This document shows positions 7,871 to 51,083 of a stretch of 64,000 nt of DNA, piece after piece. The notes under the pieces are model-generated. The model had not been told where the DNA came from and searched no databases. It saw only the letters and a list, made by a program, of their open reading frames with translations. Numbering within the stretch: position 1 is the first letter of the stretch; every line of letters begins with the position of its first letter. Source of the stretch: Rhodobacterales bacterium HTCC2255 (lineage in GTDB: Bacteria > Pseudomonadota > Alphaproteobacteria > Rhodobacterales > Rhodobacteraceae); the NCBI GenBank assembly GCA_000153745.1, contig DS022282.1:1200066-1264065 (forward strand), given 5' to 3'. The position numbers and the translations under genes are program-made.

Positions 7871-10315
7871 TTATACTTTTACACGCTCAGATTTTGGATC
7901 ATATACGGGCTTTATGCTCACATTTGCAGCTATTTTTACACCTGCTACATCAATTTCATAAGTTGAAGATAATATATCTGAAACTGCTTCATTTTTACAT
8001 GGGACATATCCTAAACCGATTGCTGCACCTATCGTATGACCATAATTTCCAGATGTAAGATGCCCAACTAGCACTCCATCGCGTAAAATTGGCTCGTTAT
8101 GGTAAAGCAATGGCTCACTGTCGTTAAGCACAAATTGGAGCAGCCGCCTATCTAAACCATTTTCTTTTTTTCGCAAAACTGCATCACGTCCAATAAAATC
8201 TGGTTTGTCAGTTTTCACTGCAAAACCCAAACCAGCCTCTAAAACATGATCTTCACACGTAATATCATGTCCAAAATGTCGAAACCCTTTTTCTATTCTC
8301 AAGCTATCCATCATATGCATACCACATAACTTCATCCCAACATCTTGTCCCGCCTCAAAAATTGTATCAAAAATGTGCCCAGCTTGATCAGAACTAGCGT
8401 ATATTTCCCAGCCGAGTTCGCCAACGTAAGTCACTCGATGCACCCGAGCTAAACCCATGCCGATTTCAATTTCTTGAGCAGTCCCAAAAGGATTCACTTC
8501 ATTATCAAAACGATTTGGACTAACCATTTGAAGAAGTTTTCTACTATTTGGACCCATTACAGCCAATACGCCTTCACCAGCTGTGACATCAGTAATTACT
8601 ACATTAAAATTACCAACATTACGGCTTAACCAAATTTGATCAGCCAATCTTGTTGCCGCTGGTGTTACAACTAAATATGCAGTTTCACTAAGTCTTGTAA
8701 TAGTAACATCAGCTTCAATACCACCGGTGTTATTTAAAAATTGCGAATATACTATTTTTCCAATTTCAACATCATATTGTCCCGCTGCAACAAAATTTAA
8801 AAACCCAGTTGCATCACGCCCCTCTATTCTAATTTTTCCAAATGAAGACATATCATACAAACCAACATTTTCCCGTACAGAACGGTGTTCATTAGCTGAA
8901 TTTTCAAACCAATTTTGTCGCTTCCATGAATATTCATATGAAGCTGTTTGTCCTTTTTCAGAAAACCAGTTTGCTCTTTCCCATCCTGCTAATTCTCCCA
9001 TGACTGCACCATGATTTAACAACTGGTAATGAAAAGGTGTTCTACGAATATTTCGAGCCGTCTTTTTTTGTAAAAATGGAAAATGGTCAGCGTATAATAG
9101 TCCTAGAGTTTCTTTGGATCTTTCAAACAAATATTTTTTATTACCTTGGAACGGCTGCATTCTTGATATATCTACATCTCCCAAATCAAACGGCTTTTCT
9201 CCACTATCCATCCATTCAGCTAATGCCATTCCAGCACCACCAGCTGATTGTATTCCAATTGAATTAAAGCCAGCAGCCACCCAAAAATTATCTAATTCTG
9301 GCGCCAATCCTAAATGATATGCATCATCAGGTGTAAAACTCTCAGGACCATTAAAAAATGTTTGAATACCTGCTTCAGCAAGCATAGGCATGCGCTCACA
9401 TGCAGCTTCTAATATTGGCTCAAAATGATCAAAGTCTTCTGGCAATTGGTCAAATTCAAAATCAGTCGGAATGCCATTCATACCCCAAGGCTTTGATACT
9501 GGCTCAAATGCACCCAATAAGAATTTACCCGCATCTTCTTTATAATATGCGCATTCATCAGGCACCCTTAAAACAGGTAGTTGTTTTAATCCTTTTATAG
9601 GCTCTGTTACTATATAAAAATGTTCACAAGCATGTAATGGAACATTTACTCCTGCCATACGTCCAACTTCATGACCCCACATTCCGCCACAATTTACCAC
9701 CATATCAGCTTCAATGTATCCAGACTCATTCTCCGCCTTCCAGTGGACTCCGGAAACTCTCCGCTCCTTTCTGGTAATTTCTGTAACTAAAGTATTTTCA
9801 AAAATTTCAACACCATTATTACGAGCACCTTTTGCTAAAGCTTGAGCAATATTTCCTGGATCACCTTGACCATCTTTAGGCAACCAAACACCTGCTGTAA
9901 CACCATCAATGTTTAAATGTTCATATTTATTTTTGACTTCTTCTGGAGAAATTTCTTCAACATCTACACCAAAAGCTCGCGCCATGGCAGCTTGCCTAAA
10001 TATTTCTTCTTTTCTTTCTTCTGTCAAAGCTACAGTTATAGATCCACAACGTTTAAAACCTGTGGAAACTCCAGTTTCTTTTTCTAAATTTCCATATAAT
10101 TCCTGCGAATATTTGGCTAATTTTGTCATGTTTGCAGATGCACGTAATTGTGCAATTAATCCAGCAGCATGCCATGTAGTGCCAGACGTCAGTTGTTTGC
10201 GCTCTAAAAGAATAATTTCTTTCCAGCCTTTTTTAGCCAAATGATAAGCTACTGAACAGCCGATTACTCCACCACCAATTATTATTACTCGTGCAGTTTT
10301 GGGGATATTTGTCAT
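7871..10315 (-). CDS. FAD/GcvT-type dehydrogenase, sarcosine or dimethylglycine dehydrogenase-like
   Basis: An 814-residue two-part flavoenzyme. The N-terminal D-amino-acid-oxidase fold has the dinucleotide motif VIIGGGVIGCSVAYHLAK, then SGTTWHAAG, whose His carries covalent FAD in characterised relatives. The C-terminal half is a GcvT/aminomethyltransferase-like folate domain (LGWEIYASSDQAG, MDSLRIEKGFRHFGHD). Such enzymes oxidise an N-methyl group of sarcosine or dimethylglycine and pass the one-carbon unit to tetrahydrofolate. A good AAAGGA ribosome site precedes the ATG. Last gene of the minus-strand methylated-amine block. Sarcosine is my preferred substrate because the other paralogue looks more like a dimethylglycine dehydrogenase, but motifs cannot settle this. 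Confidence 0.85.
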   Translation of the reverse strand: MTNIPKTARVIIIGGGVIGCSVAYHLAKKGWKEIILLERKQLTSGTTWHAAGLIAQLRASANMTKLAKYSQELYGNLEKETGVSTGFKRCGSITVALTEERKEEIFRQAAMARAFGVDVEEISPEEVKNKYEHLNIDGVTAGVWLPKDGQGDPGNIAQALAKGARNNGVEIFENTLVTEITRKERRVSGVHWKAENESGYIEADMVVNCGGMWGHEVGRMAGVNVPLHACEHFYIVTEPIKGLKQLPVLRVPDECAYYKEDAGKFLLGAFEPVSKPWGMNGIPTDFEFDQLPEDFDHFEPILEAACERMPMLAEAGIQTFFNGPESFTPDDAYHLGLAPELDNFWVAAGFNSIGIQSAGGAGMALAEWMDSGEKPFDLGDVDISRMQPFQGNKKYLFERSKETLGLLYADHFPFLQKKTARNIRRTPFHYQLLNHGAVMGELAGWERANWFSEKGQTASYEYSWKRQNWFENSANEHRSVRENVGLYDMSSFGKIRIEGRDATGFLNFVAAGQYDVEIGKIVYSQFLNNTGGIEADVTITRLSETAYLVVTPAATRLADQIWLSRNVGNFNVVITDVTAGEGVLAVMGPNSRKLLQMVSPNRFDNEVNPFGTAQEIEIGMGLARVHRVTYVGELGWEIYASSDQAGHIFDTIFEAGQDVGMKLCGMHMMDSLRIEKGFRHFGHDITCEDHVLEAGLGFAVKTDKPDFIGRDAVLRKKENGLDRRLLQFVLNDSEPLLYHNEPILRDGVLVGHLTSGNYGHTIGAAIGLGYVPCKNEAVSDILSSTYEIDVAGVKIAANVSIKPVYDPKSERVKV

Positions 10316-40626: not shown

Positions 40627-42045
40627 ATGCAACAGATTACACCAATAATTTTATGTGGGGGCTCTGGTTCTCGACTTTGGCCTCTTTCTCGCAAAAGCTA
40701 TCCAAAACAATTTGTACCACTAGTTGGCGATAAAACACTTTTTCAAAATTCTGCCACACGCCTCACTGGTAAGCAATTTAAAAATCCTGTAATTGTAACA
40801 AATTCTGATTATAGATTTATTGTAAATGAGCAATTACAAGAAATAGGCATAGAGCCTGGTGCTATCTTAATTGAACCAGAAGGGCGCAATACTGCCCCAG
40901 CTATTTTAGCTGCTGCATTATTTGAATATCAGATAAATCCAGATGCCATACTTGTTGTTGCTCCATCTGATCATATAATAAATGATGTGAATGCATTTCA
41001 ATTAGCAATTGATGAAGCTTATAAAGTTGCTCAAGACGGGCAGTTAGTAACTTTTGGCATAAAGCCAACTCATCCAGAGACAGGATTTGGTTATTTAGAG
41101 CTTTCAAAAATTTCGACAGCACAAGCAGTGCCGTTAAAAGCTTTCGTGGAAAAACCAGACCTAAGTAATGCTAAAAAAATGTTCCAATCAGAAAATTTTC
41201 TGTGGAACTCAGGTATTTTCCTATTTCAAGCGAGAGATATCATTGAAGCATTTAAAAAATATTCTCCATCTGATTTAGACGCCGTGAATTTATCACTTAA
41301 AAATAGCATAAATGATCTTGGGTTTTGCCGTTTAAATCTCACAGATTGGGTAAAGACTGAGAATATCTCTATTGATTACGCCATTATGGAAAAATCTGAC
41401 AACCTTTCAGTTGTACCTTTTAGCGCAGGTTGGTCAGATTTAGGTGGTTGGGATGCTGTATGGCGTGAAAATGTGTCAAACGCTGATGGTGTCAATACAT
41501 CTAATAATGTAACCGCGATCGGCTGTGAAAATTCATTAATTCGATCTGAAGACGAATCGATAGAAGTTGTAGGAATTGGCCTCAAGAATATTATAACAGT
41601 AGCCATGAAAGACGCAGTACTTGTTGCGGATATTTCAAAATCCCAAGATGTAAAAAAAGCAGTTGATATTCTCAAAGAGAAGAAAGCAAGCCAAGCCACT
41701 CAATTTCCAAAAGACCACCGACCTTGGGGATGGTTTGAGAGCTTAACGATAGATGAAAATTTTCAGGTTAAAAAGATACATGTTCATCCAGGAGCATCTC
41801 TTTCACTTCAAAGCCATAAATATCGTGCTGAACACTGGATAGTTGTTTCTGGTGTAGCAGAAGTAACAATAGATGAAGAAGTAAAACTCGTCAGCGAAAA
41901 TCAGTCTGTTTATATTCCTCTTGGTGCTATTCACCGAATGCGGAATCCTGGAGAAAAACCAATGGAATTAATCGAAGTTCAAACAGGTACATACTTTGGT
42001 GAAGACGACATTTTTAGGTATGATGATATATATTCAAGATCATAA
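40627..42045 (+). CDS. manC: Mannose-1-phosphate guanylyltransferase / mannose-6-phosphate isomerase
   Basis: 472 aa bifunctional type II enzyme making GDP-mannose. The nucleotidyltransferase domain starts PIILCGGSGSRLWPLSRKSYPKQF (read in parts) and has GFGYLE and AFVEKPD. The C-terminal cupin isomerase domain (residues about 355-465) has HRPWGWFESL and HVHPGASLSLQSHKYRAEHWIVVSG. It supplies the precursor for the gmd-colC-colD genes on the opposite strand. Confidence 0.94.
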   Translation: MQQITPIILCGGSGSRLWPLSRKSYPKQFVPLVGDKTLFQNSATRLTGKQFKNPVIVTNSDYRFIVNEQLQEIGIEPGAILIEPEGRNTAPAILAAALFEYQINPDAILVVAPSDHIINDVNAFQLAIDEAYKVAQDGQLVTFGIKPTHPETGFGYLELSKISTAQAVPLKAFVEKPDLSNAKKMFQSENFLWNSGIFLFQARDIIEAFKKYSPSDLDAVNLSLKNSINDLGFCRLNLTDWVKTENISIDYAIMEKSDNLSVVPFSAGWSDLGGWDAVWRENVSNADGVNTSNNVTAIGCENSLIRSEDESIEVVGIGLKNIITVAMKDAVLVADISKSQDVKKAVDILKEKKASQATQFPKDHRPWGWFESLTIDENFQVKKIHVHPGASLSLQSHKYRAEHWIVVSGVAEVTIDEEVKLVSENQSVYIPLGAIHRMRNPGEKPMELIEVQTGTYFGEDDIFRYDDIYSRS

Positions 42046-42087
42046 CCCACATTATTGTTCAATTTAGGACATTCAACTCTAAATAAA

Positions 42088-43260
42088 TTAAAATTGAATT
42101 TGTGCTAAAGCATCAATCGCCTCATCAATTTTATAGTGGTGATTTCCTATGAATAAACCGTTTTTATCAATATAATCAGCATTCTCTAGCTTACCATGCA
42201 CCCTATGAGGTATGTGTGCCATGACTGGGTTATTTGTAAAGTTTCCTGCGACAATCGGACGAACCTCAAAACCAATTAGATTTAATTCACTTATCAGCCT
42301 TTTACGTGATATATTTTTATTTGGCCTTAATACCAACGCAAATCCAAACCAACTACTTTCACCGATCTCTTCTTGTAAAAAGAAAATTGGATGATTTCTC
42401 AATTTTTTTTGTATTATTTTAGCATTATCTCTGCGACCTTCAATAAGAGTAGGTAATTTTTTAATTTGTTCCAACCCTAAAGCACCTGACATCTCAAGTG
42501 GCCTTAAGTTATAACCAGGTAAAACAAAGTTAAAACTTTCCTCAAAGGCATCATCACTTTTTATTCCTGTAACTTTATTTTCAATAGGCAGATTACGTGT
42601 CCAACCATGAGATCGCATAGACAGCATAATATGATAAAGCTCTTCATCATCAGTTACCACTATCCCACCTTCCATTGTAGAAATATGGTGTGAGAAAAAA
42701 CTTGAGAAAGTACCCATTATGCCAAAAGTGCCTGTATATTTATTTTGAAATTTTGCTCCCATACTCTCACAATTGTCTTCAAGCAATAAAATATTTCTTG
42801 TGCCTATAAGTTCTTTAATTTTTTCAAAATTGTTTGGATTACCAAGCAAGTTTACTATCATTATAGCCCTAGTTTGGTCAGTTATGGCATCTTCAAGCGC
42901 AGATAAATCATAGTTTAATGTATATAAATCTATATCGACAAATTTTTGCACTAGTCCATACTGAGATAATGGATAATAAGTTGTTGACCAACTTACTGCA
43001 GGAACAATAATTTCATCGCCTGGTCTCAGGTGAATCTTCTCATTTTTAGTATAAAACAAAGCACCTGTCATTAAAAGGTTTGCAGAAGAACCTGAATTTA
43101 CCATTACTGCGTATTTTGAACCAAAATATTTAGCAAATTGTTTTTCAAATTCTTTAACTTCAGAGCCCATGGAAAACATATTAGAAGTTATAACTCTCTG
43201 TAATGCATCATATTCATTCTGATCCCAAGATGTTGTTGCTAAAGGAAATTTGATTGTCAT
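42088..43260 (-). CDS. colD: GDP-4-keto-6-deoxy-D-mannose 3-dehydratase (ColD)
   Basis: 390 aa DegT/DnrJ-fold PLP enzyme. At residues 184-199 it reads TFSSFFSHHISTMEGG: the position that carries the PLP-binding lysine in ordinary sugar aminotransferases holds His-His (191-192). That replacement is the hallmark of ColD, which removes the C3 hydroxyl of GDP-4-keto-6-deoxymannose. From memory, the E. coli O55 enzyme also shares MFTMG, AVMVSSGS, VPAVSWSTTYYPL and DKNGLFVGNHQ, and each has a close counterpart here. Translationally adjacent to colC (end-to-start, one-base contact). Confidence 0.82.
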   Translation of the reverse strand: MTIKFPLATTSWDQNEYDALQRVITSNMFSMGSEVKEFEKQFAKYFGSKYAVMVNSGSSANLLMTGALFYTKNEKIHLRPGDEIIVPAVSWSTTYYPLSQYGLVQKFVDIDLYTLNYDLSALEDAITDQTRAIMIVNLLGNPNNFEKIKELIGTRNILLLEDNCESMGAKFQNKYTGTFGIMGTFSSFFSHHISTMEGGIVVTDDEELYHIMLSMRSHGWTRNLPIENKVTGIKSDDAFEESFNFVLPGYNLRPLEMSGALGLEQIKKLPTLIEGRRDNAKIIQKKLRNHPIFFLQEEIGESSWFGFALVLRPNKNISRKRLISELNLIGFEVRPIVAGNFTNNPVMAHIPHRVHGKLENADYIDKNGLFIGNHHYKIDEAIDALAQIQF

Positions 43261-44183
43261 TAAACTACATTCTCCAAATAATATTTATATGTTGATCTGA
43301 TGCCTTCTTTTAAAGTTGTTTTAGGTTGCCAGCCCCATTTTAATTGCAAAGAGATATCAGATAATTTTTGTGCCATTCCAGTGGGTTTTGAATAATCAAA
43401 AACAAACTCTCCTTGCCATCCTATAGCAAGCGCAACTGATTCATAATATTCTTTTATTGTATAATCAGTACCCACACCTAGGTTCATTAAATCTGGCATG
43501 TCCGAAATGCTTTCCAATGCAAAATAAATCGCGTCGGCCAAATCTTCTATATACATAAATTCACGCCGTGCGGAACCATCACCCCAAATTTCTACAGATT
43601 GCTCTCCAATGATTTTTGCTTGATGAACCTTGTGAATTATAGCTGGTAAAAGATGCGAATTCTTAGGATCAAATTTATCAAATCTGCCATAAAGATTACA
43701 TGGTATTAGTGTTTTATAATTATAGCTAGGATCTTCTTTTCGAATATATTGGCACAATCGGAGCGCAACAATCTTAGCAATTGCATATCCTTCATTAGTT
43801 GGTTCAAGCTTACCTTCTAAAATATACTTTTCTTTTAAGGGGTTTTGCGCTTCTCTTGGGTAAATACACGTAGAAGCAAGATTTATTAGCTTTTTTATCT
43901 TAGCTTCACGCGCTCCCATTATTACATTTCTGCCAATTACAATATTTGAATCTAAAAATGCAACAGGCTCCTCTATGTTTGCAGAAATACCTCCAACCCT
44001 TCCCGCACAATGAAGAACTATATCGGGCTTGCATTCATTAAAAAAGGATTTAACCGATGCATAATCCATCAAATTTAAATCATTGCTGGATGGAGCAATA
44101 ATGTTCCATTTATTTGAGGCGTAATGATTTTGTATATTACGCCCGACTAATCCTGAGCCACCTGTAAGAAGCAATGTTGGCAT
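43260..44183 (-). CDS. colC: GDP-L-colitose synthase-like epimerase/reductase (ColC; GDP-fucose synthase family)
   Basis: 307 aa short-chain dehydrogenase-type enzyme. NAD(P) motif LLTGGSGLVGRNI; catalytic STCIYP and YAIAK (YxxxK); substrate-side NLYGRFDKFDP and NSHLLPA as in GDP-fucose synthase. The start (LLTGGSGLVG, then APSSNDLNL) resembles ColC as I remember it rather than Fcl, and colD next door supplies the 3-deoxy substrate. A plain GDP-fucose synthase cannot be excluded without alignment. Confidence 0.75.
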   Translation of the reverse strand: MPTLLLTGGSGLVGRNIQNHYASNKWNIIAPSSNDLNLMDYASVKSFFNECKPDIVLHCAGRVGGISANIEEPVAFLDSNIVIGRNVIMGAREAKIKKLINLASTCIYPREAQNPLKEKYILEGKLEPTNEGYAIAKIVALRLCQYIRKEDPSYNYKTLIPCNLYGRFDKFDPKNSHLLPAIIHKVHQAKIIGEQSVEIWGDGSARREFMYIEDLADAIYFALESISDMPDLMNLGVGTDYTIKEYYESVALAIGWQGEFVFDYSKPTGMAQKLSDISLQLKWGWQPKTTLKEGIRSTYKYYLENVV

Positions 44184-44199
44184 GCCTTAATGAACCTTT

Positions 44200-45309
44200 C
44201 TAATGATCATAGCTTTCAAAACCATTTTTAAGAAGGAAGTGTAATTTTTTAGCTTCTGCTAAATCACATGCAACCATTTCAGAACACATTTCTTGGGCAG
44301 TTATTTCAGGAACCCACCCAAGTTTTTCCTTTGCTTTTGAAGGATCTCCTAACAATGTCTCAACTTCAGCAGGCCTAAAATACCTAGAATCTATTCTCAT
44401 AATAACATCTCCTACATTTATTGAAGGGGCTATTTCATTGTTGACCTTTGATACTGTTGCAATTTCATCAATGCCTTTTCCAGAAAATTCAATTTCTATT
44501 CCAAGATCACTGGCTACCCATGTTATGAAATTTCTTACTGAATGCTGAATACCAGTTGCAATAACAAAGTCATCAGGCTTTTCTTGTTGTAGCATCATCC
44601 ATTGCATACGAACATAATCTTTAGCATGCCCCCAATCTCTTAAAGCATCGATATTTCCCATATAAAGACATGTTTCTAGACCTAGTGCTATTCGAGTTAA
44701 TCCTCGTGTAATTTTTCGAGTAACAAAAGTTTCCCCTCTTCGGGGAGACTCATGATTAAATAAAATTCCATTACATGCATAGATCCCATAACTTTCACGG
44801 TAATTAACAGCAATCCAATATGCATACAATTTTGCTACAGCATATGGTGACCGTGGATGAAAAGGTGTATTCTCGGTTTGAGGTATTTCTTTAACCAATC
44901 CATATAATTCTGAAGTAGACGCTTGATAAAATCGAGTTTTATTTTCAAGTCCCAAAAACCTAATTGCTTCAAGAATTCTTAGTGAGCCCATAGCATCAAC
45001 GTCGGCTGTATATTCTGGAGCCTCAAATGATACAGCAACATGTGATTGAGCACCAAGATTATATACTTCATCAGGCTCAATATCACGTATAATTCGAGTG
45101 AGATTCGATGAATCTGTAAGATCACCATAATGTAGCTTAAGATGAATATTATCTAAATGTGGGTCTTCAAATATATGATCTATGCGTTGTGTATTTAGTG
45201 ATGAGGCACGCCGTTTGATGCCGTGTACCTCATATCCTTTTTTTAATAGAAACTCTGCCAAATATGAGCCATCTTGACCTGTAATCCCTGTGATAAGAGC
45301 TTTTTTCAT
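44200..45309 (-). CDS. gmd: GDP-mannose 4,6-dehydratase
   Basis: 369 aa extended SDR. N-terminus [24 protein letters not shown] with the NADP motif, then [19 protein letters not shown]; catalytic [11 protein letters not shown] and [44 protein letters not shown]. It converts GDP-mannose to GDP-4-keto-6-deoxymannose, the branch point for colitose, fucose and rhamnose. First gene of the minus-strand gmd-colC-colD run. Confidence 0.96.
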
Positions 45310-45515: not shown

Positions 45516-46265
45516 ATGACATCTCAGAACAAAAAAACTCATTTTGGCTTTAAAGAAGTGAACGAAAAAGACAAGGCTCAGATGGTGCGTGGAGTTTTTT
45601 CATCAGTTGCTTCAAAATATGACGTTATGAATGATGTAATGTCTTTTGGAATTCACCGTATTTGGAAAAATAGTATGATGGACTGGCTATCCCCTCAGCC
45701 AAATCAGAAACTACTTGATGTTGCGGGAGGTACAGGTGACATTTCATTTCGCTTTTTGAAGAGGGCACCCACTGCACATGCTACGGTCTTTGATATGACA
45801 CAAAGTATGTTGGATGAAGGACAGTTAAGGTCAGAAGCTGAAAAAATAGAAAATCACCTAGATTGGGTTTGTGGTGATGCTATGTGCCTTCCATTTAAAG
45901 ACAATTCATTCGATGTTTATACAATATCATTTGGCATCAGAAATGTAACACATCCTGAAAAAGCTTTAAGCGAAGCATTCAGAGTTCTACGGCCAGGTGG
46001 TCGTTTGATGGTATTAGAGTTTAGCCAAATTCCCAACCCATCAATGCAATGGGCATACGACAAATACTCTTTTAATATTATTCCTCCAATGGGGAAGATT
46101 ATTGCTAATGATTCTGAAAGTTATCAATATCTTGTTGAAAGTATAAGAAAATTTCCAAATCAAGAAAAATTTTTAGAAATGGTAAGTAATGCAGGGTTTA
46201 GTAACGCAAAATATCGTAATTTAACAATGGGTGTAGCGTGTTTGCACTCTGGGTGGAAAATTTAA
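45516..46265 (+). CDS. ubiE: Ubiquinone/menaquinone C-methyltransferase UbiE
   Basis: 249 aa SAM methyltransferase of quinone biosynthesis. UbiE signatures are [29 protein letters not shown], and [21 protein letters not shown]-like [13 protein letters not shown] ends it. It methylates the C2 of the demethoxy-quinone ring. The ubiB start follows the stop with no gap. Confidence 0.95.
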
Positions 46266-47798
46266 ATGCGTGGTCCACACAACATATGGCGGCTTATTCG
46301 AACTGGTACTACATTTGAACGTACTGGTGCGATGCAAATTATTTTGGATAAGCTTGATTTACCACCATTATTAAAGTTTACTATTCGTTTTATTGGTAAA
46401 CCCTTTAAACTTTTGGGCTTAAAAGGTGATACACAGTTTCCCCCGATAGTAAGAGCCCTAACAGCTCTGGGGCCTGCATATATTAAATTTGGTCAAATAT
46501 TATCTACTCGACCTGATTTAGTAGGCGCTGAGCTAGCAAAACAATTGAGCGTACTGCAAGAAAGCTTGCCTCCGTTTTCTAGGGATTTAGCATTGTTAGA
46601 GATAGAAAGAGATTTAGAAATTTCTACTAATGAAGTATTTGAAAATATCTCAGAACCAATAGCTGCTGCATCCATTGCGCAAGTCCACAAAGCAGTTCTT
46701 AAATCTACTGGTCAAACAGTCGCGATCAAAGTTTTACGGCCAGGTATAGAAAAAGCTTTTAGAAAAGACATCGATGCATTTTATCTAGCGGCAAATATAA
46801 TTGAACTCTTATCCCCTAAATCTCGTCGCTTGAGGCCACTTGAAGTCATCGAGCATTTTGATTCAGTTGTGCAAGGTGAATTAGATTTAAGACTAGAAGC
46901 TTCAGCAGCATCTGAATTTTCAGCAAATACAAAAGGTGATGCATTTCTATGTATTCCAAACATTCATTGGGAAACATCTGGCAGAAGAGTCATGACACTT
47001 GATTGGATTGATGGAATTCCATTAGCTGATTTAGAAGCTTTAAAGAATTCAAAAACTGATATGGAAGAGCTGTCCACTCGTATTTTATCAATGTTTTTAA
47101 GACACGCACTGCGAGATGGTTTTTTTCATGGTGACATGCATCAAGGAAATTTAAAGTTAAATTCTAAAGGCGAATTGGTTATATTTGATTTTGGCATAAT
47201 GGGTCGAATTGATGAATATACTCGTCGTGTTTATGCAGAAATATTAATGGGATTTATAAAAAAAGATTACAAACGTGTAGCAGAAGTTCACTTTGAGGCA
47301 GGTTACATATCCTCAGATCAAGATGTGGATTTATTTGCCCAAGCACTAAGATCGGTCGGAGAGCCAATTTTTGGTCAAAATGCAGAAAATATATCCATGG
47401 CTAAACTTCTCTCACATTTATTTGATGTAACTGAAAGATTTGGAATGGAAACACGCACTGAACTTATACTTTTACAACGTACAATGGTAGTTGTTGAAGG
47501 TGTTTCAAGATCACTAAACCCAACTTCATTAGATATCTGGGAAGCAGCAAGACCAGAAGTTGAAAGCTATATTAAAAATAATCTTGGGCCAAAAGCATTG
47601 GTAAGAGATTTTATAAAAACAGCACAAACATTATCACATTTTGGACCTAAATTGCCTAGCTTACTGGAACATCTCTTAACCAGTGATATCAAAAATAAAA
47701 CGAATCACAAAAAGAATAGTGTTAAAAGTAAACTTACTTGGGCCCTAATTGGAAGTGCTTCAACTACATTAATCATTATTATACTAAATCATTTTTAA
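46266..47798 (+). CDS. ubiB: Ubiquinone biosynthesis atypical kinase UbiB
   Basis: 510 aa ADCK/UbiB-family protein. KxGQ motif AYIKFGQILSTRPDLVG, alanine-rich nucleotide loop IAAASIAQVHKA, catalytic FFHGDMHQGNLKL and FDFGIMGRID. A C-terminal hydrophobic span (TWALIGSASTTLIIIIL) anchors it. It supports coenzyme Q synthesis at the membrane. Immediately downstream of ubiE; the 3' end overlaps the convergent kinase-like gene by 15 bases. Confidence 0.95.
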   Translation: MRGPHNIWRLIRTGTTFERTGAMQIILDKLDLPPLLKFTIRFIGKPFKLLGLKGDTQFPPIVRALTALGPAYIKFGQILSTRPDLVGAELAKQLSVLQESLPPFSRDLALLEIERDLEISTNEVFENISEPIAAASIAQVHKAVLKSTGQTVAIKVLRPGIEKAFRKDIDAFYLAANIIELLSPKSRRLRPLEVIEHFDSVVQGELDLRLEASAASEFSANTKGDAFLCIPNIHWETSGRRVMTLDWIDGIPLADLEALKNSKTDMEELSTRILSMFLRHALRDGFFHGDMHQGNLKLNSKGELVIFDFGIMGRIDEYTRRVYAEILMGFIKKDYKRVAEVHFEAGYISSDQDVDLFAQALRSVGEPIFGQNAENISMAKLLSHLFDVTERFGMETRTELILLQRTMVVVEGVSRSLNPTSLDIWEAARPEVESYIKNNLGPKALVRDFIKTAQTLSHFGPKLPSLLEHLLTSDIKNKTNHKKNSVKSKLTWALIGSASTTLIIIILNHF

Positions 47799-48641
47799 TA
47801 GATCTATTTCTGCTAATGCTGCTTTTTCATACTCTATGAACCCTTGCTCAGCTTTCCAAAAACAATACGCAGCCAGTCGCCAGTGATAAATGGGGCCAAT
47901 TATATTATACCGACTTCGCAATTTAGGTGTAAGGTTCGTTAGAAAATCTTCATGATCTTTTATAGAAAAGTTTCCTGAACCATAAATTTTATGCATTCCA
48001 GGAGAAAGAAACATCACAATATCTACAATTGGGTCACCGATAGCAGGGCATTGCCAATCAATAAGTCGCAACCCTTTTTCACCTAATATCAAGTTACCTG
48101 GCACAACATCAGTATGTAATAATACAGGCTCAATATCTGAAATTGATACATCTGGACATATATTGATTAATTTATTTTTATGATAATTGTTTAGCTTGTT
48201 TATTATTTCAAGCCCAGTTTGTTTAATGTCTGATGGCAAATTTGAAAGAATCCGCAATCCTTTTGGGTATCTGCGCTTGCGAATTCGAGTTAATAATTCT
48301 GATACAGTCTCTACATCATGAGACCATGTGTGCCCTTTAATATAATTATACAAAAGAACGTCACCAAAAGGCGTTTTTAAATACTTATGGGGCTTTGGCG
48401 CGATATCTGAACCATCAAGCCATAGAAGACATCTATACTCTGCTTCTGGAGTGTTATTAAAAAGTGGGTTAGTGTTTGTTTCTAAATACAGCTTACAAAT
48501 TAAATCCTTTTCACCTATGAGCCGCCATACTTTATTTGTTTGCCCCCCAGTTTGAGCATGCCATACGGTTTGATTTGATATTACCCCCTGCATACTCAGA
48601 TAATTTTGTAGTTGGTTCTTTATTTGATTGTTAAAATTCAT
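47784..48641 (-). CDS. APH/choline-kinase-like phosphotransferase
   Basis: 285 aa aminoglycoside-phosphotransferase-fold protein. Catalytic loop LLHTDVVPGNLIL (HxDxxxxN) and metal site LRLIDWQCPAIGDPIVDI are present; N-terminal QTGGQTNKVWRL is a glycine-rich loop. The substrate might be choline, ethanolamine, thiamine or a similar small alcohol. Just upstream of the tRNA-Arg and on the opposite strand. Confidence 0.86.
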   Translation of the reverse strand: MNFNNQIKNQLQNYLSMQGVISNQTVWHAQTGGQTNKVWRLIGEKDLICKLYLETNTNPLFNNTPEAEYRCLLWLDGSDIAPKPHKYLKTPFGDVLLYNYIKGHTWSHDVETVSELLTRIRKRRYPKGLRILSNLPSDIKQTGLEIINKLNNYHKNKLINICPDVSISDIEPVLLHTDVVPGNLILGEKGLRLIDWQCPAIGDPIVDIVMFLSPGMHKIYGSGNFSIKDHEDFLTNLTPKLRSRYNIIGPIYHWRLAAYCFWKAEQGFIEYEKAALAEIDLLKMI

Positions 48642-48723: not shown

Positions 48724-48800
48724 GGCTCTGTGGCTCAACTGGATAGAGCAGCCCCCTCCTAAGGGGCAGGTTGGTGGTTCGAATCCACCCAGGGTCACCA
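48724..48800 (+). tRNA. tRNA-Arg (anticodon CCT)
   Basis: 77 bases including an encoded CCA. Acceptor GGCTCTG pairs with CAGGGTC (two G-T pairs); D-arm GCTC...GAGC; anticodon stem GCCCC/GGGGC around CTCCTAA, giving anticodon CCT (Arg, AGG codon); T-arm GGTGG-TTCGAAT-CCACC. It is complete and should be functional. Its 3' 45 bases recur at 49756-49800. Confidence 0.96.
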
Positions 48801-48975
48801 AATTAATACAACAATTACAATAGGTACAGTTTTTGTAAAAATATACATCCCTTAAAAAACACCTAAAACACCGTTTACAAATAGTTTAGCGATAAGTTGA
48901 CTATATAAATATCTTATGGTTGTTTTATAGATAACTATCGCAGTAAAATTTATTTAGATATAACAGGAGCGTATA

Positions 48976-49605
48976 ATGGACATAAAAAATATTTTGTTAT
49001 TTCTTATATCAAGTATTTTACTTATTGCCTGTAAGGCTGAAATTGTAGAACTGGATATTAAAGCAAAAGATGTGTTTGCTGCTGTTGATGGTGAAGATGG
49101 GGTAATTGAATTTGAAGCTCAGTTCAGTAATTTTGGAGAACTGGATGAAGAAGCAAGAGCACAAGTTGAAGCGTTAGAGAATATCTTAACAAAGTTTATG
49201 GAAATAGATGGCTTTGAAATAGAAAATACAGATATGGGTTACGACATCATTTTAGAAGGTGAAATGCCGATATCAAACAAGAAATTAGACGCAACATACT
49301 ATATTCTTGTATCTTCATCTGAACTTTTTGATGGATACACCTTTTTAGAGCTCAAAACAGGCGATGACTTTAATAATCTTTCAAATCAAATGTCTGCAAT
49401 TAACTTTATGTTATCACCTGATGAATTTCATCCAACGAAAATAAAGCTAAAAGGTAAAGATGTACAAGTTTTGATACCTGCAACTGAAATTGATGGGAAA
49501 GCATATTTATTTTATGAAGGTGTTATTAATGGAAGAATATCTATGAAATTTGAAGGTGGCGTTTTTGATAAGACAGGTGCTGGATTATTTTTGAAAGAAA
49601 ATTAG
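48976..49605 (+). CDS. Hypothetical lipoprotein
   Basis: 209 aa; I do not recognise the family. Signal peptide with lipobox (SILLIAC, Cys at 19) and then an acidic, beta-rich body (GEDGVIEFEAQFSNFGELDEEAR in parts; ISMKFEGGVF near the end). The second half alternates beta strands with polar turns, suggesting a single periplasmic domain. A strong AGGAG lies eight bases upstream. It is the only gene between the two tRNA-derived repeats, so probably recent cargo. Confidence 0.8.
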   Translation: MDIKNILLFLISSILLIACKAEIVELDIKAKDVFAAVDGEDGVIEFEAQFSNFGELDEEARAQVEALENILTKFMEIDGFEIENTDMGYDIILEGEMPISNKKLDATYYILVSSSELFDGYTFLELKTGDDFNNLSNQMSAINFMLSPDEFHPTKIKLKGKDVQVLIPATEIDGKAYLFYEGVINGRISMKFEGGVFDKTGAGLFLKEN

Positions 49606-49755
49606 ATCGATAGTAACATAAACAAAGTATATTTTATTGTAAGTCGTTGATTTTGCTTGATAAATTCCACACATGAATATATACAAAACGTGTACAAATT
49701 TAAAAGTGCGTCTGTAACTTATTGATTTTAAAAAGAAATCAGATAAACCATTGTT
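49606..49755. other. Gap between lipoprotein and tRNA fragment
   Basis: AT-rich noncoding sequence with no gene. It contains GTGTACAAATTT near 49691, similar to GTTTACAAATAG near 48874 on the other side of the lipoprotein gene; these could be arm-type sites of a recombinase, but the match is short. Confidence 0.25.
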
Positions 49756-49800
49756 CTCCTAAGGGGCAGGTTGGTGGTTCGAATCCACCCATGGTCACCA
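49756..49800 (+). repeat. Duplicated 3' end of tRNA-Arg (att-like)
   Basis: Starts in the anticodon loop (CTCCTAA), keeps the variable loop, the whole T-arm and the CCA, and differs from the intact tRNA at one acceptor base. The 5' half is missing (ACCATTGTT precedes it), so it cannot fold as a tRNA. Confidence 0.85.
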
Positions 49801-49865
49801 TAAATTATCTATAGATAATAAATTAATATCATTATAAGATAAAATTTCTTATTAAAGGTGTGGTT

Positions 49866-51083
49866 ATGTGTAAATTGTCTTTTATATTTGTTTTTGTAAT
49901 ATCCTTGAATTCACAACCTTTGTTTTCCCAAAATGATAACCTTAATATGAGTGTTGGTACTGCTTTCAATTCAGGAAATGTCTTTGGAGTTTACAATAAT
50001 TTAAGAACCCAAAATAAAAACAATGTTAATTTCAATCTTGAATATTCAAAAAGAAATTTGTCATCACAATTGTCTCTAAATTATGATGATCATGATAAAC
50101 TTAACTTTGATAATTCATATGTTAATTATGAGAACGGAATAGCAAACTTTAGCATTGGAAGAGTTGACCGTATATGGTCCTTTTCAAAAAAATCATCTCT
50201 TGTCTTATCTTCAAATAGTAGGCCCTTAGGGGCCATTTCTATAAATTTAAAAAATAAGTTTAATACGCAATGGTTGCCCTCAACAGCAAATTGGTCAGTT
50301 GAACTTATTAATGGCTCTACTAAAAATTCACTAAATGGTAAGAATTCAATGCTATCTGGCGCAAGAGTTGTAATAAGGCCATCTAAAAAATTAAACTTTG
50401 AAATTCTACAAATAGGACAATGGGGTGATCAAAATGATAAGTTATACTCGTTTAATATTGATGCTTTATTATTCGGAAATACAAATGAGGGGCCCAAATC
50501 CAATCTTAATAAGATGGCCGGATTTGGTGTCTCATATTCAATACCTTTAAATAAAAATACCTATCGCTTTTATAGTCAAACGATAGGCGAGGACGAAGCT
50601 GGCAGTTTACCTTCATGTCTTGCGTGGATGGCAGGACTTGAGTTGACAGCCCCAAAAATGAAATTTCCAACAACTTTAACAATCGAAGCTGTTGATACAC
50701 GCGTGAAAAGAAGTACACATGGTAATTGTGGGCCAAATACTATGTATAATAATAGCGTTTATGATTATATCAACTATGAAACTGTGTTGGGTGTACCAAT
50801 AGATACTGAGGGTACTTCTTTAGAAGTATTTGGGCAATCTCAGATAAATAATAATTTAGATATTAATTATTCAACAAAGTTTCTTTCGATTAATGATCAA
50901 GATTATTCACAGCATCGCTTATCATCGAAACGTAGTTTGGGAACGATAACAACACTGGGAATTAATTGGGAAAAAGATGGTTTTGATTTAGGTGGAAGTA
51001 TTGGCTATCAAAATATAATATTAGATAAAGCTAATATATCAAACGGTACAATATTTAGCCTATATACGTCAGTAGAATTTTAA
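49866..51083 (+). CDS. Wzi-like capsule-assembly outer-membrane barrel
   Basis: About 405 aa. Signal peptide ending SLNSQPLFSQ, then alternating polar/hydrophobic strands, ending in a terminal Phe (SVEF), all typical of outer-membrane barrels. The stretch RVDRIWSFSKKSSLVLSSNSRPLGAISI, read in two parts, and YRFYSQTIGEDEAGSLPS resemble the Wzi family, whose members anchor or assemble capsule at the cell surface. Start taken at the ATG 49866 since an AAAGG lies seven bases upstream; a GTG at 49860 is open. Confidence 0.75.
   Translation: MCKLSFIFVFVISLNSQPLFSQNDNLNMSVGTAFNSGNVFGVYNNLRTQNKNNVNFNLEYSKRNLSSQLSLNYDDHDKLNFDNSYVNYENGIANFSIGRVDRIWSFSKKSSLVLSSNSRPLGAISINLKNKFNTQWLPSTANWSVELINGSTKNSLNGKNSMLSGARVVIRPSKKLNFEILQIGQWGDQNDKLYSFNIDALLFGNTNEGPKSNLNKMAGFGVSYSIPLNKNTYRFYSQTIGEDEAGSLPSCLAWMAGLELTAPKMKFPTTLTIEAVDTRVKRSTHGNCGPNTMYNNSVYDYINYETVLGVPIDTEGTSLEVFGQSQINNNLDINYSTKFLSINDQDYSQHRLSSKRSLGTITTLGINWEKDGFDLGGSIGYQNIILDKANISNGTIFSLYTSVEF

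Follow-up and report, generated by a model that had tools for sequence, protein, structure and literature searches.

An integrase-less 1000-bp unit with a single lipoprotein gene at tRNA-Arg(CCT): a probable integration footprint in Rhodobacterales bacterium HTCC2255

The window analysed here is the whole 64,000-nucleotide stretch from contig DS022282.1 of Rhodobacterales bacterium HTCC2255 (genome G000 below). In it, tRNA-Arg(CCT) is followed by a displaced copy of its own 3' half, with one orphan lipoprotein gene between the two copies. The geometry of this repeat, taken together with the same tRNA in relatives, identifies the unit, as far as sequence can tell, as an integration footprint. 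We consider it probable (about 0.8) that the unit is an integrase-less, att-flanked, CIME-like element that was placed by a tyrosine integrase and could be mobilised by a helper.

The unit, its cargo and its flanks

ARAGORN finds a single tRNA in the window, and in Rfam the tRNA alone exceeds its gathering score. The last 45 bases of this tRNA recur downstream in the same orientation, without a 5' half (Table 1). The first-pass annotation had described this repeat, with one mismatch, and a unit length of 1000 bases. Both descriptions held, and the start-to-start distance is exactly 1000 bp. The runner-up match to the 45-mer in the window, on either strand, has 20 mismatches, and chance is therefore ruled out for the repeat. 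The similarity covers everything from the opening base of the anticodon loop to the 3' CCA of the tRNA. The sole difference between the copies (48792 G versus 49792 T) disrupts the acceptor-stem pair C5-G69 in the displaced half (pairing by eye), as is expected of a displaced copy freed from selection. No third copy of the 3' half is present in the whole genome (2.30 Mb, 2 contigs). At E 0.001 the genome gave just one further match, to another tRNA-Arg-like place, with 76% identity. A promoter and terminator scan gave no excess over shuffles.

Table 1. Features of the unit and its immediate surroundings (window positions)
Feature	Position	Strand	Basis or remark
Conserved left flank: presumably ubiE-like, ubiB-like and phosphotransferase-like genes	45516..48641		names suggested by the sequences
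Intact tRNA-Arg(CCT), integration target	48724..48800	+	ARAGORN; 3' half (48756-48800) forms the upstream repeat copy, attL side
Anticodon loop CTCCTAA, likely crossover place	48756..48762	+	half-tRNA breakpoints in relatives
Unit interior, 955 bp	48801..49755		29% GC versus 36% for the window
Left arm-like site GTACAGTTTTTGTAAA	48824..48839	+	one mismatch to GTACA-N6-GTACA; 23 bp past the tRNA (+23)
Orphan 209-aa lipoprotein gene, only cargo found	48976..49605	+	lipobox LIAC by eye
Right arm-like site ATACAAAACGTGTACA	49681..49696	+	one mismatch to GTACA-N6-GTACA; starts 75 bp before the displaced core (-75)
Displaced 3' half of tRNA-Arg(CCT), attR side	49756..49800	+	44/45 identical, mismatch at tRNA base 69
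Wzi-family capsule assembly gene, outside the unit, right side	49860..51083	+	Pfam E 1.8e-39

The unit contains one open reading frame (ORF) of at least 50 aa, which confirms the annotated orphan lipoprotein gene as its only gene. The lipobox occupies residues 16 to 19 of the product. The protein was found in none of 40 relatives (24 of them congeners, a set without the eight congeners G041 to G048) and in none of 393 other family genomes. This excludes the case in which all relatives carry the same lipoprotein and tRNA fragment. Pfam matches were all below the cut-off (E 0.047 and 0.069), the best PHROGs match had E 0.12, and matches in phage records had E 0.3 or worse. NCBIfam, PADLOC, the sequences in the PDB, plasmids and viral contigs gave no match. 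An AlphaFold model made without relatives had a mean pLDDT of 33. Our guess, by analogy, is that the protein may sit at the surface and act in superinfection exclusion or conversion, as other lipoproteins do.

In 13 congeners the immediate left neighbour of tRNA-Arg(CCT) is a ubiB gene. Several of these have, further left, the order gyrB, recF, dnaN, dnaA, rpsT, mutM, ubiE, ubiB (among the best 8 matches per gene), where the gene names are those that we take the sequences to suggest. The stretches examined of other congeners, for example G004, G010, G012, G015 and G016, contain no ubiB. Right of the tRNA, the window proteins are unmatched in 27 relative regions except for a weak 29% match in G041, and the Wzi-family gene is present in 0 of 32 other genus genomes. 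The first-pass annotation had placed the unit at the edge of a polysaccharide island. The Wzi-family gene right of the fragment makes this setting real on that side. A second polysaccharide-type block occupies window positions 40627-45309, between mutM and ubiE. All four of its genes are matched only by G002 (68 to 84%) among the relative regions compared.

The same tRNA in the genus and family

Displaced tRNA-Arg(CCT) halves broken at or near the anticodon loop were found in 9 of 33 genus genomes, the window genome included. Eight of them have displaced 3' halves (G000, G003, G009, G010, G016, G018, G020 and G048) and two have broken 5' halves (G001 and G009). The match to the tRNA opens at bases 23 to 33 in the displaced 3' halves and closes at base 39 in the broken 5' halves. 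The stretch common to both is therefore the loop, bases 33 to 39. In G018, three bases of the loop are different. In G003, G009 (contig C27), G010 and G020, the displaced half and the intact tRNA are not joined on one stretch; G001 and G009 (contig C16) are the 5'-type cases.

The DNA between the repeats differs from genome to genome. G016 carries 14 kb with relaxase-like, methyltransferase, Vsr-like and McrBC-like genes (by eye), and a tyrosine integrase adjoins its displaced half (Pfam E 1.2e-9). In G018 the cargo is a 2.2-kb DarT/DarG pair (DarT, Pfam E 3.5e-21 and PADLOC 4.4e-30; DarG, macro domain E 1.2e-21 and PADLOC 5e-115). The 10 kb in G048 hold metabolic genes for the most part (by eye). 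In the family, the 3'-half pattern is present in 244 of 394 genomes, with at least two copies in 32 (our count). When the 31 other multi-copy genomes were searched again, 20 had two copies on one contig. We took 16 of these 20, and 14 of the stretches included both ends; with G000, G016, G018 and G048 they make up a set of 18 intervals. Measured start to start, these intervals are 1000, 1056 and 2156 bp and then 7490 to 17801 bp. Six further on-contig intervals all exceed 17 kb, so that 3 of 24 on-contig intervals are shorter than 2.5 kb and the others are at least 7.4 kb.

The 1056-bp interval, at tRNA-Arg(CCT) of G257 in another genus, is a second unit of about 1 kb. Its displaced half is identical to the intact one, and it encodes a 105-aa lipoprotein-like ORF (LPAM_1 E 0.07, below the cut-off) and a 69-aa ORF. 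It has candidate arm-like repeats GCACAAAATTGACACA (+124) and ACACAAAATTAGCACA (-78), each with one mismatch to a looser motif. The occurrence of lipoprotein-like genes in both minimal units is only suggestive, and no shared family of the window and G257 proteins was found.

The intact and displaced 3' halves are unlike in 7 of the 18 pairs and identical in 11. The number of changes is 8 in G018, 7 in G048, 3 in G182, 2 in G100 and one each in G000, G049 and G345. Beyond the loop, the G018 displaced half matches the intact G006 gene exactly and the intact G045 gene at all bases except one. Unlike halves, most pronounced in G018 and G048, are expected if an element carries its own 3' half in. 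The window halves differ by one base, so the window pair by itself is no proof of exchange. Overall, the common site, the other cargo and the unlike 3' halves in relatives support the annotated footprint of integration into a tRNA.

The first-pass annotation had proposed an alignment of relatives at this tRNA. Repeats of this kind were found in this way to enclose other cargo in relatives, but an exact empty site was not found among them. The nearest relative by ubiB, G002 (80% identical), has a contig that stops at base 47 of tRNA-Arg(CCT). A UbiB search of genome contigs gave 80 loci, 5 of them with tRNA-Arg(CCT) and with no second copy in their stretches; one of the five, L142, is the G048 contig, and this stretch stops before the known displaced half.

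Several other arrangements were seen at this tRNA. In G009 C16 (L040, 11001-11039 and 4-53) and G001 C28 (L047, 2884-2922), the 5' half on the ubiB side is cut at base 39 and is followed by foreign DNA that is alike in both genomes. In G009 C16 a 419-aa integrase comes next, and a fresh 5' half lies 11 kb on, at the contig end, as if this opposite-type element supplies a 5' half. The single-contig genome G003 (C1; L044, fragment 10150-10194) has a displaced 3' half with no 5'-half match within 3 mismatches. Similar gene blocks, with multicopper-oxidase and metal-resistance-like proteins, lie left of the displaced halves of G009 C27 (L041/L138) and G003 C1 (L044/L136), as judged by eye. The same 3'-half pattern occurs in 24 stretches from the viral collection, 16 of which have no 5' half. 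One contig, IMGVR_UViG_3300040801_002902 (53.5 kb; L222, L232 and L239), has three tRNA-Arg(CCT) 3' halves with two kinds of element end and is probably a tandem array.

Integrases, arm-like sites and the source of a helper

The 18 intervals were searched with seven integrase queries. An integrase of the G016 type (78 to 100% identity) is present at the right end of 10 intervals; in G156 its ORF has 252 aa only. In G165 and G260 the left end holds an integrase distantly related to that of G009 C16, and the G048 interval gave only a 28-residue match to an integrase C terminus. The five remaining intervals (G000, G018, G257, G124 and G345) gave no match with these queries. By eye, G345 has an integrase-like ORF and G124 has transposase-like ORFs. 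The annotated absence of an integrase from the window unit was borne out by the seven queries and by PF00589. As a check on an origin by deletion from an ICE or IME, we looked for an integrase remnant. None is detectable in the window unit (E 5), whereas G048 keeps one.

In all 10 G016-type intervals, a direct repeat GTACA-N6-GTACA begins 81 bp before the displaced core, where it sits in the last codons of the integrase gene. All 10 have a second such repeat 103 bp past the tRNA; one half-site in G325 reads GCACA. In other elements the repeats are of another kind or absent; beside the displaced halves of G003 and G020, none was found within two mismatches. G048 has kept both arms (-81 and +85), with its integrase reduced to a C-terminal piece (HMM E 6.6e-4), and is an integrase-loss intermediate. 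In G009 C27 the integrase that adjoins the fragment is split between two frames.

The window unit has an arm-like site near each end (Table 1). With at most one mismatch and within 130 bp of the ends, limits that were chosen post hoc when the window sites were known, none of 5000 dinucleotide shuffles had the motif at both ends (15 had it at the left and 17 at the right), and neither did any of 1218 other window stretches. The genome as a whole has 28 forward and 38 reverse sites, and the window pair, 857 bp apart, is the closest same-strand pair of these 66. As a control, the motif read backwards has 74 and 82 genome sites and is thus commoner than the motif itself. Fifteen of 20 intact tRNA sites in the genus have no site of at most two mismatches within 200 bp; the five with the motif are G000, G010, G016, G018 and G048. 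Against a mobile unit, the window sites are mismatched and lie at -75 and +23, compared with -81 and +85 to +105 in the motif-bearing congeners.

The genome has three PF00589 genes. Two are XerC- and XerD-like (by eye). The third, at G000:C1:2115200-2115628 (L068 10138-11229), is the only non-Xer tyrosine integrase of the genome and adjoins tRNA-Leu(GAG), where another element may therefore lie. We rejected it as a helper for the unit, since it is not similar to the G016 type. No matching integrase was thus found in the genome, and any helper would need to come from elsewhere. Suitable elements are present in the genus and family. The lack of a matching integrase in the genome and the arm-like sites at both ends support the annotated need for help from another element.

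Origin of the unit and its relation to known elements

We suggest the following course of events. A tyrosine integrase would have inserted the unit into tRNA-Arg(CCT), with crossover in the anticodon loop. The incoming DNA would have supplied a replacement 3' half, so that the tRNA stayed whole, and the old 3' half would have moved 1 kb downstream, where its decay has probably begun. The integrase may later have been lost, leaving one lipoprotein gene between two att sites with arm-like repeats. The product would be a CIME-like deletion derivative or passenger that could be cut again by an integrase brought in when another element enters this tRNA. The one-base difference in G000, the mismatches and shifted positions of the arm-like sites, the post hoc limits of the motif count, the lack of an integrase remnant and the lack of an exact empty site point against this explanation. 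So do the displaced halves of G003 and G020, which are without arms, and the genus cases that are of the 5' type or have no intact tRNA on the same stretch as the displaced half.

A competing account, to which we give somewhat less than even odds, is that a larger integrative element has lost nearly all of its DNA and is immobile now, with the lipoprotein gene left over. The displaced half is indeed mutated, the arm-like sites are imperfect and shifted, and the genome has no helper integrase. Integrase decay at this tRNA is also on record, as a clear loss in G048 and as the split frame in G009 C27. However, both arm-like sites persist in AT-rich DNA, and the unrelated unit of about 1 kb in G257 would be odd if minimal units were random leftovers only.

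It is improbable that the copy at 49756 is instead the inner junction of a larger array, one that includes the right polysaccharide genes and has lost its outer fragment. Such an array would fit a Wzi-family gene and neighbouring proteins with almost no match in the relatives compared, and probable arrays exist, as in the viral-collection contig with three 3'-half copies. But the genome holds no further tRNA-Arg(CCT) fragment, and polysaccharide genes also lie left of ubiE, not within any repeat. A local duplication of the 3' half, with no recombinase involved, is very improbable. The two halves are nearly identical, as it would predict, but chance would have to place both duplication ends where the integrase-bearing elements of relatives have theirs, at the anticodon loop and the end of the tRNA, and there are arm-like sites at both ends and intervening DNA that is private to the window genome in the searches made.

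The unit can be set beside several known systems, which we cite here from the available parts of the papers. CIMEs retain attL and attR and have no integration or transfer genes, and elements at the same site can stack in tandem (PMC5704250). The window unit likewise lies between the attL and attR of a single site (the tRNA and the displaced 3' half, with arm-like sites) and has no integration or transfer genes, its one ORF being the lipoprotein gene. It differs from CIMEs in its size of about 1 kb and its single gene. Islands enter the Islander collection only if they have an integrase and a length of 2 kb or more; its anticodon-centred class makes up 2083 of 3919 islands, and 159 of the 3919 are of the 5'-half-supplying kind (PMC4383910). 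Like these islands, the window unit has an anticodon-centred site, and its tRNA and 3' fragment are correctly ordered and oriented. However, with no integrase and 1000 bp, it fails on both counts.

Closer in scale are the additive flexible genomic islands at tRNA-Lys of pelagic Methylophilaceae, which range from 330 bp to 42 kb, contain 1 to 63 CDS, are preceded by direct repeats of the last 20 bases of the tRNA, and encode mostly unknown proteins (PMC10872708). The window unit shares with them a cargo, here one that varies between genomes of the genus and family, next to direct repeats of the 3' end of a tRNA. The tRNA and the repeat length are different, and no arm sites are described for these islands in the parts cited. 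Tycheposons, of 4 to 200 kb, also have cargo bordered by a tRNA (PMC10872708). Unlike the 1-kb window unit, they have a tyrosine recombinase. Mobile elements are also known to leave tRNA fragments (PMC9897764). Small units beside tRNA 3' repeats are thus already in print (PMC10872708), and we count the window unit among this known kind. No description of the window unit itself was found by title or abstract opening in one open-access literature collection.

Tentatively, and with doubt, we raise the possibility that mini-islands of one or two genes at tRNA-Arg(CCT) form a class in the Rhodobacteraceae. Its members would be the window unit (1.0 kb), G257 (1.06 kb) and G018 (2.2 kb). They would consist, apart from cargo, of att sites and arms only, would ride on the integrases of larger elements, and would deliver surface lipoproteins, or defence genes of the DarTG type, as a tRNA counterpart of gene cassettes. 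Because island finders modelled on Islander look for an integrase and a length of at least 2 kb, they miss one-gene units such as the window unit.

Complete elements, the integrase-loss intermediate in G048 and the minimal units share one tRNA, which makes them a concrete test system. The 11-bp-spaced arm repeats allow us to ask which integrase could move an integrase-less unit. If the small units do move, they would offer streamlined marine bacteria a cheap route for the exchange of single surface or defence genes.
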